This document shows, piece after piece, positions 24,851 to 30,282 of a DNA stretch of 64,000 nucleotides. Position 1 is the stretch's first letter; each line of letters starts with the position of its first letter. Source of the DNA: Paenibacillus amylolyticus (GTDB lineage Bacteria; Bacillota; Bacilli; Paenibacillales; Paenibacillaceae); NCBI RefSeq assembly GCF_029689945.1, contig NZ_CP121451.1:6076001-6140000 (forward strand), written 5' to 3'. The position numbers and the translations under genes are program-made. The notes beneath the pieces are model-generated. The model saw only the letters and a program-made list of their open reading frames with translations, was not told where the DNA came from and did no database searches.

Positions 24851-25003
24851 TCATCGTACAACTCGGCTATGTCTCGCCTTAGTTTCGCTGACTCGTGCCA
24901 CCAGTTCATCCACCCTCCGGCTCTGTTCCTGAACCTCGGGATTGTCCCACAACGGAATCGCTTGCTTCAAGGATGCCTCACCAAGCTGATTAAGCTTGCG
25001 CCT
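24851..25003 (-). pseudogene. Spo0E-like aspartyl-phosphatase fragment
   Basis: Open frame of 50 codons without a start, reading NQLGEASLKQAIPLWDNPEVQEQSRRVDELVARV. The S-x-x-h-D-E-L-h core in its second half is the Spo0E signature; intact members dephosphorylate Spo0A. A stop (25004-25006) lies just upstream in frame; a plausible start lies in another frame (GGAATAACATAGAGGCGCAAG), so a small indel may have broken it. Confidence 0.45.
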
Positions 25004-25214
25004 CTATGTTATTCCTTTTCTCTTTGTCTCATCTAAATTGTACGAAAAATTATGAACTTTTTAATGTAATTATCGAATTATAATAAAAGAATACGATTAA
25101 TTTGCATGGTGGTAATAAACTGTTACCTCTAAGGAAAATAAATTTTCATATTTATAACATTGCCTAACTGACTCATATCAGCAATTATTCTCTCCATATA
25201 TTTGCTTCCTTTAA

Positions 25215-25247
25215 ACAAAAACGGCTGCACTGAAGTTCATGCAACCG
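25215..25247 (-). terminator. Terminator beyond the ATPase-nuclease gene
   Basis: Minus-strand CGGTTGCA-N10-TGCAGCCG followed by TTTTTG. A second inverted repeat (AGAAGTTCT and AGAACTTCT, about 25320-25360) lies between it and the gene. Confidence 0.6.
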
Positions 25248-25361
25248 ATGTTCTCAATTTTTTGTACACTCTTGCATTCTCAATTTTAGTGGCGTGGATT
25301 CCTTCGCCCATACTCAAAGCAGAAGTTCTTATTATGAGCAAAGTGGTAATGAGAACTTCTA

Positions 25362-26756
25362 TTATTGTCTTTGAAGAAAACCTGCTAATTGTGCGTGTCT
25401 TCTTAAAGTGACTTTAATTGCATCTTTAATTGACGAAGGTTTTGTGTTTTCCGAAGAAAACACCTTCATTTCGATAATAAGCTTATTTTTTTGTGCTCCT
25501 TCTTTTTTAACATATACATCTGCTCGAACTGAACTATATTCTGTATTGATATTTTTTTCATATGATGCTTCAAGGTCACACAATCTTAGTATCTCAGAAA
25601 TTCTTTTCCCCAGTGCGACAGATTTTTCTGGTATATCTTGATACCACTCACGTGCAGCAATAGAACGTTGAGACTCTCTATCCCTAACAGGATTAAAATT
25701 ATAATTAGTCCAATTATCAGAAAGTATTAAGTAAAAATGAGTAGCCTTAAATCTATTTAATGGTGAAACAGGTACTCGGTAATTTTCATCTTCTAATGAG
25801 AGACAAAGCTTGTGTAAATCAGCAACTTTTACAGGAACAATACGAAGATCAAAGTACAATCGCGTTTTATTAAATTCTCTTAAAGGTAGACTCGCTCTAT
25901 CTTCGTCATTGAGTTCTCTATACCAAGCATCCCAATTAAGTTTATAACCTTCACGAGGCTTACTAAATTGCAGTACACGTTGAATTCTTACACTGTCTGC
26001 GACAGGCCACATTAGGATTACTTGGTAATCTGACAGATTATCAACATCATCAATGTTGCTCGCCAACAAGCTACCAACTTTTTCAATCGCGGCACCTATT
26101 GTACTACATCGAAGGCCAATATCCACCAGATCTGGTTCCAAAATACCGTAGTCCGCTAATGAATTCTCTGAGTTATGGAAGGAAAAAGTTTCTTCAATGA
26201 TTGAAGGCCATTCTTCTTTAACGGGTCCTGAAATTATAAAATCATCACTTAAAAGAATCCTCTTATTTCTACTTGTAGCATCTACTAATAACCTCTGAAA
26301 CTCCCTATTTGTCGTCAACCAAATAAAAACAATTGGTATATTACGAAACTCTCCCCGGTCTAATAAACTTAAATACTCTACAAATTGTGTTGGAATAGTC
26401 TCTCTGCCTACTACTCCTTCTTCATATTGATCAATAATCGCAATCAATAATTTGTCAATATTATATATTTTCTCGATTTGTACTCTTTCAAAGAGTTTCT
26501 CTTTACTTTCAATCTCTTCACGATTAAGTTGAAATGTATATGTACTAGGGATATGTGTACTTATCTCGCGAACAGCGGAAGTCTTTCCAGCGCCACTTTC
26601 ACCGTACATAGGCAGAAAGCGAATCCCTCCACTAATTTGTATTGATTTATTTGCAGTGTTTATTATAGATAACAAGTTTGAATTAGGTACCAATCTTCCC
26701 CTATATGCCGTATCAAGATCTTCATATCTCGAAGGTAAACTGATTGTAATGGACAT
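25362..26756 (-). CDS. AAA-type ATPase fused to a PD-(D/E)XK-like nuclease domain
   Basis: 464 residues, GAGGAG ahead of the ATG. Residues 45-160 form a P-loop NTPase core: Walker A GESGAGKTS (52-60), Walker B-like LLIAIIDQYEE (103-113), sensor-like IVFIWLTTN (142-150). The middle is a helical lid or linker. The last 60 residues contain RADVYVKKEGAQKNKLIIEMKVF, a D-(n)-E-x-K pattern of PD-(D/E)XK nucleases. It lies 220 bp downstream of the Shedu gene on the same strand. I infer an ATP-gated nuclease acting with or beside Shedu in defence; the fold calls rest on motifs seen by eye. Confidence 0.65.
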   Translation of the reverse strand: MSITISLPSRYEDLDTAYRGRLVPNSNLLSIINTANKSIQISGGIRFLPMYGESGAGKTSAVREISTHIPSTYTFQLNREEIESKEKLFERVQIEKIYNIDKLLIAIIDQYEEGVVGRETIPTQFVEYLSLLDRGEFRNIPIVFIWLTTNREFQRLLVDATSRNKRILLSDDFIISGPVKEEWPSIIEETFSFHNSENSLADYGILEPDLVDIGLRCSTIGAAIEKVGSLLASNIDDVDNLSDYQVILMWPVADSVRIQRVLQFSKPREGYKLNWDAWYRELNDEDRASLPLREFNKTRLYFDLRIVPVKVADLHKLCLSLEDENYRVPVSPLNRFKATHFYLILSDNWTNYNFNPVRDRESQRSIAAREWYQDIPEKSVALGKRISEILRLCDLEASYEKNINTEYSSVRADVYVKKEGAQKNKLIIEMKVFSSENTKPSSIKDAIKVTLRRHAQLAGFLQRQ

Positions 26757-26976
26757 AGTAATAAATCTCCTCTCTTTCTAATTTCCCTGTGTTCTATCAT
26801 TGAAATTCCCTAAACAACTTTCATTACTACATCTAAAAATACGTAGTTAATAAAATACATACAGAACTCCTTATTACTATTGTTTTGTTTCTTTATGAAT
26901 AGATTTTTTTGTATTCACGGCCTTTAAAGAAGTGTTTGTACTTATTTTCCCCACAAATTCTTACTACACATAGTAA

Positions 26977-27975
26977 TTAATCTTCGTATTGCTTTAATAA
27001 CAACTCACCATAAGAAACTAGATCATCATAAGTAATTATTTGAATTGAATTAAGTTTAGAATTCAAAACTCTTAAACAATTCTTCTGATCATTATTAAAG
27101 TTCTTATTGAAACCCACGATTATTCTAATTCGAGGCATTATAACTTTAATGGAATACTCTCTTTCTAAGTTCAACTTATATTCTTCTAACTTTTGCAAAT
27201 AGAAAAGGCTTTGACCAATGACTAATGACAAATCTGGATGAGGATAATAACATTTATGGCTCATATCATACTTTAGTAAATCATGTGATGGCCGCTTTAA
27301 TTCAATTAAATCAAGATATCCATCAACTGATTCCATGAGCAAATCTCCTTCACTAAATAAACCAATCTTTCTTGCATCATGCTTTTTTATATAATCCACA
27401 CCGAAAATCCATAAATTTTGTTCAATCCAATTTTGAAAAACCTTTTCTGGTTGTTTAGCTCGATATTTGATTAAGCTATCTTCAGAATTCACTCCATCAA
27501 CTATTTTTCCACTCTCTTCGTAAAGTAATAGTTTCCTTAGATTTGAAATCTCACTTATCATTAGTTTATGATGGTAGGCACCATGTAAATTTTCTATTTC
27601 CAGATCACTTAATGACTCTAGTAGACCAATAATTTTATTTTCTGATTTGAATTTGTTTAATAAGGTTAGTATTACTTCTAAGTCTCTCTCCTTTAAACTT
27701 TCTAGTAATACGTTGATTTCATCTGAGGTTTCAACAAACTTAGAAGATATAGGAGCTCCTTCTCTAATAATCGAAATAGAATTCAAATGTGTAAAAATTT
27801 TTCTAATATGGTCTACATAGAGTCGTTCTGTAAAAATAGGCATACCTTGAGCATCTATTGCAAAGATGTTTAAGCAAAGGTCTTCACTAGCAGTATCATT
27901 CACTATACCAGAATAATTTAGCATTAATTTAAACCGATCAGTTGAATAAATTTCCAGGTGGTAAGCAACACTCAT
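26977..27975 (-). CDS. sduA: Shedu-type nuclease, DUF4263 (SduA-like)
   Basis: 332 residues from the ATG at 27975 (GAAGGTG). The C-terminal half matches the Shedu domain: EKVFQNWIEQNLWIFG, GDLLMESVDGYLDLIELKRPSHDLL (the D-x(n)-E-L-K nuclease core), YYPHPDLSLVIGQSLFYL, MPRIRIIVGF, and ITYDDL near the end. Shedu is a known single-gene anti-phage nuclease. The N-terminal 150 residues are the variable sensor region. It starts 5 bp after the stop of the WYL-like gene, so they form one operon. Confidence 0.85.
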   Translation of the reverse strand: MSVAYHLEIYSTDRFKLMLNYSGIVNDTASEDLCLNIFAIDAQGMPIFTERLYVDHIRKIFTHLNSISIIREGAPISSKFVETSDEINVLLESLKERDLEVILTLLNKFKSENKIIGLLESLSDLEIENLHGAYHHKLMISEISNLRKLLLYEESGKIVDGVNSEDSLIKYRAKQPEKVFQNWIEQNLWIFGVDYIKKHDARKIGLFSEGDLLMESVDGYLDLIELKRPSHDLLKYDMSHKCYYPHPDLSLVIGQSLFYLQKLEEYKLNLEREYSIKVIMPRIRIIVGFNKNFNNDQKNCLRVLNSKLNSIQIITYDDLVSYGELLLKQYED

Positions 27976-27980
27976 TAATC

Positions 27981-28322
27981 TCACACCTTCGCAATGGTAT
28001 TTGAATAACCTGTCCATTCAGGATTATACTTATCAGTTAATATTTCGAATTTTGGTTCACTTTCAATAATCTCGATGTTTCCAACATCTTTTATATCAAA
28101 CATTCTAAAATCAGGAAAAGGGTTTTCCCAAGCAGAATCTGAAACTCCTCCTGTTTGTACAATATGTATTTTTGTACTTTTCAATCCACTTTTAGCTACA
28201 AAAATAAAAATTGCATGTACATTGCCTACTCTTATACCTTGAATTTTTCCAGGCTTGTTGTAGGTAAACATAATTGGTTTTCTATTCTCTACTGCTTGAA
28301 TTAACTTGTTGAGAGTTTCCAT
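27981..28322 (-). CDS. WYL-like domain protein
   Basis: 113 residues, AAAGGAG before the ATG. The N-terminal part (LNKLIQAVENRKPIMFTYNKPGKIQGIRVGNV) resembles the ligand-binding WYL fold that often controls defence and CRISPR loci, but here it has no DNA-binding domain. It is the first gene of the leftward operon with Shedu, 5 bp apart, and may sense a ligand that licenses the nuclease. The WYL call is by pattern only. Confidence 0.5.
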   Translation of the reverse strand: METLNKLIQAVENRKPIMFTYNKPGKIQGIRVGNVHAIFIFVAKSGLKSTKIHIVQTGGVSDSAWENPFPDFRMFDIKDVGNIEIIESEPKFEILTDKYNPEWTGYSNTIAKV

Positions 28323-28445
28323 TAAGATTGCTCCTTTGTTAACGTATCAGAATATTCTTCTAAAATCTAAACTACGTATATCATAACCCATCTTGCGACA
28401 TTTTCAGAGAAAAATTTGGTGAAGAAGGAAGATTCAGCAGAAAAA

Positions 28446-28637
28446 TTATTCATCAATTCTTTTTCCAAGGAAGTTTATGGACTTTTTTAGATAATTTTTG
28501 TCAATATATGCTACTCTTGCATTCATATGACTAAGTAGTTCCTGAATGTAGCGTAGGTCTGTCCCATTTTTCAGCAGATGAAAGCCTCGGCGCATGATGT
28601 ACATAGCTGAATATAGCAAATCATTAGATGTTATCAG
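28446..28637 (-). pseudogene. Tyrosine recombinase (integrase) C-terminal remnant
   Basis: An open frame without a start encodes FHLLKNGTDLRYIQELLSHMNARVAYIDKNYLKKSI. This is the C-terminal catalytic region of XerC/phage-type integrases (H-x-L-L-x-N-G-x-D-h-R-x-I-Q-x-L-L-x-H); the nucleophile Tyr would fall in AYID. It lies just upstream of the Shedu operon and suggests that the cassette arrived on a mobile element. Confidence 0.7.
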
Positions 28638-28658: not shown

Positions 28659-28904
28659 CTACCTAACAGACGTCCAGATGTTGTTTGAGAACGCTAGGCA
28701 ACCACAGTAATTTTGAAAAGGTTTGTTATTCATTCGTCGCCAAACCCCTCCGATCTTGTTGAAAACTCCTCTCTCACAATATAATTTTTTGCCTTTCAAT
28801 ATTACAGATTGTTGCAACTCTGACGGTTCATCCAACTCTTCATTAGCCCCAAATCCCGGTATATTGAAGACTGACCCTACGCTAAACAGCATTTTAATTT
28901 CCAT
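28659..28904 (-). CDS. Small hypothetical protein
   Basis: 81 residues with a strong site (AAGGAGG, 6 nt before the ATG). Begins MEIKMLFSVGSVFNIPGFG; contains three Cys in the second half. It starts 11 bp after the stop of an upstream fragment. No family recognised; it lies between the integrase remnant and the fragment and may be part of the same mobile remnant. Confidence 0.45.
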   Translation of the reverse strand: MEIKMLFSVGSVFNIPGFGANEELDEPSELQQSVILKGKKLYCERGVFNKIGGVWRRMNNKPFQNYCGCLAFSNNIWTSVR

Positions 28905-29533: not shown

Positions 29534-30282
29534 ATGAAGAATTTATTTAGAGTTCCGTTTCTTTTGTTGGCTATCTTCACTCTAGCGTTCAGTACTATAT
29601 TTCCGACCTATGCTTCTGCAAATAGCAACAATACTGTACCGACAGAGGCTCAACCGTCTAAAGCGACTGTATCTAGTGAACAGCCTAGTCCCGTAGTAAA
29701 GAACAAAAATGGTACTATTATTCCTATGGCAAGCTCTGATGTTGCCGTATTGACTCTTTTTCGGTCCCTAATGGCAGTACAAATAGTTCAGGGGGTTCGA
29801 CAGGATCGAATTGGGGCACCCATTCTTTTATAACAGTTAAAAACGTGAGTACATCCAATATTTCTGTTGGCGGACTTAGCGGAATTGCCTCTAATAAAAC
29901 TATTTCTGTGGGTACATGGGGCAATAAAAGCGAAAATGAAGGCATATTTTATAACTTAGAAGCTAAATTTATCTCTGAGAATAGCTACAATAATAGAGTT
30001 TCCCGTTCTATGTATTTAACCCAGAGCCAACTTAACAGTGTCAATTCATATATTCGAAGCCATGACTCTTGGAGCTCGTTAAATAATTGCTCTTCTTTTG
30101 CGGTAGGATTGTGGAATTCTGTATCAACAGATACGTATACTGCTGGTTTTCCAAATACGCCACAAAATCTGTATAATTCACTCAGAGACGGTGCTTACAC
30201 TACGAATGCTGCTGTGCCATATGATTATTTGGTATATTATTCAGATGAACCTAATGCTCCTAAACGTAGCAATCAGTTTTAA
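29534..30282 (+). pseudogene. Secreted permuted NlpC/P60 or papain-like protein, frameshifted
   Basis: The ATG at 29534 (GGAGG) starts a signal peptide (MKNLFRVPFLLLAIFTLAF...YASA). The frame breaks near 29762 in a T5 run; restoring one T gives FSVPNGSTNSSGGSTGSNWGTHSFITVKN, followed by the downstream frame to 30282, a 249-residue protein. The H-S-F-I-T-V-K-N histidine motif precedes the LNNCSSFAVGLWN cysteine motif, the circularly permuted order of secreted papain-like amidases. Likely a wall hydrolase or effector. Confidence 0.6.

Follow-up and report, generated by a model that had tools for sequence, protein, structure and literature searches.

The window analysed here, a stretch of 64 000 nt from Paenibacillus amylolyticus (contig NZ_CP121451.1, positions 6,076,001 to 6,140,000 of the forward strand), carries three leftward genes, the first two of which encode a small WYL-domain protein and an SduA (Shedu) nuclease (Table 1). 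A WYL gene together with the type of SduA that bears the same N-terminal domain (NTD) is a conserved pair found across distantly related bacteria, and on balance we lean towards reading it as a two-gene variant of the Shedu defence system, in which the nuclease of the closely coupled SduA would be gated by the WYL protein. The third gene, encoding an ATPase, is probably a defence gene in its own right, located in the same hotspot as the pair. The three genes stand where an earlier note on this DNA had placed them, with 5 nt between genes 1 and 2 and 220 nt between genes 2 and 3.

Table 1. Features of the locus in the window (coordinates are those of the whole stretch).
Feature	Coordinates	Strand	Remarks
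Gene 1, single WYL domain (proposed sensor or regulator in the Shedu pair)	27981-28322	-	113 aa
Gene 2, SduA (Shedu) nuclease	26977-27975	-	332 aa; distinct NTD at about 1-125, DUF4263/SduA_C nuclease at 175-320
Gene 3, AAA+/nSTAND-type ATPase; C-terminus probably PD-(D/E)XK	25362-26756	-	464 aa
Variable stretch of the defence hotspot, here holding just the three genes	25003-28365
Remnant resembling a tyrosine recombinase C-terminus, right hotspot edge	28455-28610	-	Phage_integrase E = 0.0071, weak

The start of gene 2 that leaves the 5 nt gap is an ATG; an alternative start at 28017 would give a 346-aa protein. By eye, a purine-rich Shine-Dalgarno-like stretch precedes each preferred start and is absent at 28017, and the 332-aa reading was therefore adopted. 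All 16 aligned SduAs offer an M-S start at the matching position; the longer frames of L007, L011 and L019 were trimmed to this common start before the alignment.

Loci were collected with the WYL family alone, which yielded 19 from the GTDB genome collection and one from a viral contig; each WYL scan used two short peptide patterns, so that distant relatives were missed. At 17 of these 20 loci the WYL gene is followed immediately by one for an SduA that has the same NTD, an order that exceeds chance. The pair on the viral contig L021 is nearly identical to that at L002, and about 16 of the 17 are therefore independent. The stop-to-start gap between the two genes is -1 to 7 nt at all 15 loci at which it was measured. 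The hosts of the 17 pairs (phyla assigned by us) include Pseudomonadota, Bacteroidota, Cloacimonadota, Margulisbacteria, Acidobacteriota and a Deltaproteobacterium, and the window adds Paenibacillus (Bacillota) to this range. Two of the 17 pairs have an interrupted SduA frame (after 220 aa at L002 and after 93 aa at L012), and both genes were excluded from the SduA alignment and statistics. At L002 (10324-10986, Klebsiella michiganensis) the break is an in-frame stop, and the frame is intact in the otherwise near-identical contig L021.

The paired SduAs belong to two clades, between which whole SduAs are 26% identical and the WYL proteins 53%. Within a set of 20 proteins, an NTD profile of one clade finds the other and vice versa (E from 1e-14 to 2e-23, 45-73 bits). 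Pairwise distances among the WYL proteins and among the SduAs correlate over 16 pairs (r = 0.68, a value reached by none of 5000 permutations); within the separate clades the observed correlation is reached by 69 and by four of 5000 permutations. The genes downstream of the WYL relatives at L015 and L020 do not match the SduA NTD profile (no hit and E = 0.95, respectively). At L015 (9995-13395) the WYL relative (52% identical) is followed after 53 nt by a 1006-aa gene that matches the PADLOC Ppl family (E = 6e-32), whereas L013 (4373-5985) and L020 (8544-10312), both in metagenome-assembled genomes, hold more distant WYL-like genes (46 and 39% identical) that are divergent from DUF2130 genes.

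Since the loci were drawn by way of the WYL family, the reverse association, from SduA to WYL, rests on Escherichia coli. The pair is present in three of 5426 E. coli genomes, and a query with SduA only returned the same three, all with the small gene upstream (3/3 paired). At two of these loci the annotation reads 'hypothetical protein' followed by 'Shedu immune nuclease family protein'; in strain BR1220 the pair adjoins a tRNA-Thr gene and an integrase is present, which we read as a satellite-like element. The same kind of query in Enterobacterales matched two of 394 genomes, namely the Serratia centre genome and one weak match within a 1050-aa frame. Two SduA loci were found among viral contigs, of which one is the known WYL pair and the other matches the nuclease part only. 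When plasmids were searched with the L003 SduA, 124 records matched, and among the 40 matches listed none starts before residue 60; the SduA of L011, from the other clade, matched four records, none starting before residue 122. Plasmids and phages yielded no WYL relatives at E <= 1e-5, and phages no SduA match.

By its profile matches, gene 2 is an SduA-family nuclease: Pfam SduA_C is matched with E = 1.2e-20 (74.7 bits against a cut-off of 27) and the PADLOC SduA family with E = 5.8e-38. Residues E209, E225, K227 and Q255 are invariant in all 16 aligned SduAs. D211, which lies in the motif GDLLM 14 residues ahead of E225 and which the alignment does not place in register across the two clades, is read by us as the presumed catalytic aspartate. 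Solved Shedu structures match the SduA family profile only from position 75 (8ti8), 120 (8ti9) or 133 (8ps4) onward, with the Bacillus cereus SduA 8ti8 aligning to profile positions 75-321, and about the first 75 residues of gene 2 are therefore without a counterpart in them.

Gene 1 is, to judge from its structure model, a stand-alone WYL domain. The Pfam WYL family (PF13280) matches it at E = 0.03 (14.8 bits, below the gathering cut-off of 21.8), and 12 of its 29 relatives match at E <= 0.01 (best E = 1.3e-4). The model has a predicted WYL (Sm/SH3-like barrel) fold and its best structural matches are WYL proteins, 14 of which each span it from residue 1 to residues 104-113; Foldseek alone gave no match to the model at E <= 1e-3. 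The earlier note had called the two proteins WYL-like and a DUF4263 nuclease, and both names hold, that of gene 1 by fold and structural matches with a weak Pfam score and that of gene 2 well above its cut-off. Two of the structural matches, DriD and CapW, name single-stranded DNA as bound in their entry titles. Y21, R73 and F75 are invariant in all 29 members of the gene 1 family and align, with a low score, with a Y, an R and an F of BrxR; they are taken to be the positions that match the ligand site proposed for CapW in the available passages of PMC9122588.

The well-studied WYL proteins associated with defence, CapW and BrxR, are described in the portions at hand of PMC9122588 and PMC9122601 as regulators that combine a helix-turn-helix (HTH) with a WYL domain, and gene 1 might by analogy encode an autoregulatory transcription factor of its operon. 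CapW, BrxR and DriD, however, are HTH-bearing proteins that work at promoters, whereas gene 1 is coupled to an effector gene and no HTH is found in it by Pfam at E <= 10; the WYL fold fills the 113-aa protein and so leaves no room for such a domain. Autoregulation is accordingly a very improbable role for gene 1.

The most likely role, as we infer it, is that of a ligand-sensing subunit, its ligand probably a nucleic acid, which gates SduA through the NTD. The WYL protein would bind the NTD of SduA and, while bound, hold the PD-(D/E)XK nuclease in check; phage infection would yield a nucleic-acid ligand, for example single-stranded DNA, and binding of this ligand by the WYL protein would release SduA, which would then cut DNA. 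Precedents for this scheme are the DriD and CapW structures with single-stranded DNA and the RNA-binding RspWYL1 described below. Inferred in it are that the two proteins form a complex, what the ligand is, and that control works by restraint and not by stimulation. A small gene placed first, as here at -1 to 7 nt before SduA, is a common order for antitoxins, and a pair of the toxin-antitoxin type would need no ligand sensing: the WYL protein would be a simple inhibitor that protects the host from SduA and is lost or degraded on infection. The toxicity of heterologous Shedu expression, noted in the accessible part of a review (PMC12904381), would suit such a pair; in the gated scheme the same toxicity, together with the WYL gene being translated first, is the reason why restraint is favoured over stimulation. 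A simple inhibitor nevertheless seems unlikely to us, because the residues aligned to the proposed WYL ligand site are invariant and because the fold of gene 1 matches WYL proteins that bind nucleic acids.

A gated two-gene Shedu would depart from the systems described so far. Shedu Types I and II share with gene 2 the nuclease domain and a variable N-terminal domain ahead of it, and are described as single-protein systems in the available passages of a 2025 review (PMC12409362), as is 'the single-gene Shedu system' in those of the PADLOC paper (PMC8565338). Here, in contrast, SduA is preceded by a distinct, closely coupled WYL gene at every locus measured, and the first ~75 residues of SduA are unmatched in solved Shedus. 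A Shedu nuclease under a regulatory module is also found in VcSduA (GHKL-Shedu; PMC12137116, as excerpted), in which the module is an ATPase domain fused in cis rather than the product of a separate gene. A comparable case is Type VI-D CRISPR, in which the nuclease Cas13d is boosted by RspWYL1 (PMC6547453, in the portions available). This accessory WYL protein binds single-stranded RNA and likewise acts as a separate protein on an anti-phage nuclease; RspWYL1, however, consists of a ribbon-helix-helix, a WYL and a dimerization domain and boosts an RNA-guided RNase, whereas gene 1 is a bare WYL domain next to a DNA nuclease. No description of a WYL-paired Shedu was found in the literature searched, outside which stand two main Shedu papers that may list it, and the retrieved passages of publications that mention both Shedu and WYL do not pair the two.

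The diverse N-terminal domains of Shedus regulate the nuclease, as stated in the passages seen of PMC12409362. A conserved separate sensor would split the trigger from the nuclease, so that each could be expressed, removed or swapped singly, and the activation of Shedu and the sparing of the host would therefore become directly testable.

The earlier note had further proposed that all three genes form an expanded Shedu operon, with a WYL sensor, SduA and an ATPase-nuclease acting together. Several observations speak for this: all three genes lie on one strand, the terminator scan reported no terminator-like site in the 220 nt that separate genes 2 and 3, no other gene occupies the variable stretch of the hotspot, and the ATPase is present in both members of the genus (of 75) that have the WYL gene, at the same site in the one other than the window's own. 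The last of these weighs against the two-gene reading as well. These two genus members, however, share one insertion and are 96% identical over 10.6 kb. Beyond them the ATPase was found at none of the 20 WYL loci (at L006 and L012 only 210 and 395 nt of sequence follow SduA, too little to tell) and in none of the 19 genomes behind the WYL loci, whose assemblies include metagenome-assembled genomes of 0.7-0.8 Mb. Taken alone, an entirely empty ATPase search is uninformative; the genome of the window and G440 were both found with this query. The three-gene system was rejected on this co-occurrence, with the shared hotspot stretch counting in its favour, and we regard it as highly improbable.

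The distribution of the ATPase points the same way. Gene 3 is a member of a large family with high conservation: at E <= 1e-3 it has 443 relatives, of which the 120 listed are 54-100% identical, against 29 WYL proteins in the gene 1 family (from single-sequence searches of limited reach). Matches were obtained in two of 398 genomes sampled from the phylum, three of 295 from the family, two of 75 from the genus and none of 369 from Gammaproteobacteria; the protein is full-length only in the window's own genome and in G440, with weak partial matches in G124 and G566. No phage record, no viral contig and one plasmid record provided an ATPase context. On this Pseudarthrobacter plasmid (L028, 8001-9395) the relative lies amid TIR, caspase-like and other defence-type genes, and no annotated SduA or WYL gene occurs within 8 kb of it.

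Residues 1-238 of gene 3 adopt an AAA+ fold according to the structure model and fold search, with a P-loop and an acidic Walker B-like motif. Pfam matches are below cut-off (PDDEXK_9, E = 3.6e-4; AAA_16, E = 0.012), and among 35 relatives nSTAND1 is matched in 23, AAA_16 in 22 and PDDEXK_9 in three. Matches from a fold search with the whole protein were filled by the AAA+ domain. In the modelled tail, helices at 375-392 and 440-458 flank strands at 396-404, 409-417 and 425-430, the element order of a PD-(D/E)XK core (alpha-beta-beta-beta-alpha), and E400, D413, E429 and K431 are invariant in all 35 relatives. A PD-(D/E)XK nuclease at the C-terminus is thus probable from model and conservation; profile comparison of this tail with the SduA nuclease gave a probability of 2%, which is not significant. 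Of the P-loop ATPase with a D..ExK tail put forward in the earlier note as a second Shedu effector, the AAA+ fold and the invariant D413, E429 and K431 stand, and the effector role is not supported, the gene having been found at none of the 20 loci.

The site is a defence hotspot. In all seven same-genus genomes without the cassette (L041-L047) homology stops at exactly 25002. It is picked up again by short matches of 47-70 nt, which begin at 28826 in one genome and at 28365-28370 in the other six, those in L047 lying out of order; from this break and resumption the variable stretch contains just the three genes. In the four of these genomes that were tested, all of which hold defence cargo, the same site carries a DRT reverse transcriptase (RT_UG30) with a PD-T7-3-like gene, a kinase, DitAB, or an HNH effector-like gene with a restriction-like nuclease, and seven of ten hand-picked hotspot proteins match PADLOC families. 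The location supports a defence role for the Shedu pair and for the ATPase and does not join them functionally. The feature at the right edge is probably a recombinase remnant: its Phage_integrase match is outranked by one to Chordopox_A30L (E = 0.0013), which is taken as chance, and in L044 an integrase open reading frame (E = 1.3e-15) adjoins the stretch that matches the remnant.

Small WYL proteins also occur beside other effectors. A sister family consists of single-domain WYL proteins of about 97 aa (profile match 96%, E = 4e-9), the contexts of which come from a small hand-picked set (five of 12 plasmid records and two of three genome matches). A small WYL gene of this family is directly followed by an OLD-TOPRIM AAA_15 nuclease gene, which makes another WYL-nuclease pair, on a Deinococcus plasmid (L053, 956-3030; the frames overlap by 4 nt) and in a Bacillota genome (L061, 4306-6512; 5 nt gap), and on an Aliarcobacter plasmid (L054, 3501-5881) one is flanked by an AAA_13 gene and a gene annotated as an AAA ATPase. 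At L012 (6399-8010) a second small WYL gene, also of the sister family and a short way upstream of the Shedu pair, precedes one for a PIN_8 protein, the C-terminus of which weakly matches WYL (PADLOC, E = 0.006). No clear effector was seen beside the small WYL gene at L052 (a weak DUF4411 match two genes on), L055 (judged from annotation only), L056 (unannotated) or L060. As a tentative generalization, which we hold with distinctly less confidence than the gating of SduA, single-domain WYL proteins might act across anti-phage nucleases in general as interchangeable sensing subunits, with one subfamily dedicated to SduA through a specific docking NTD and its sisters serving OLD-type, Ppl-like, AAA_13 and PIN nuclease-type genes, whose unrelated products would share one kind of nucleic-acid trigger. 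If small WYL proteins do also control OLD-type and Ppl-like nucleases, one infection signal would be common to several defence systems.

Scans of the window for transcription signals added little. The promoter scan gave 19 hits against 17.7 expected and was uninformative, and a terminator-like hairpin with a T-run lies 3' of gene 3 at 25222..25247 on the minus strand, a weak result (two found, 1.4 expected by chance). Outside the hotspot, at 29534-30282 of the window, two adjacent open frames resemble one secreted-protein gene split between frames.

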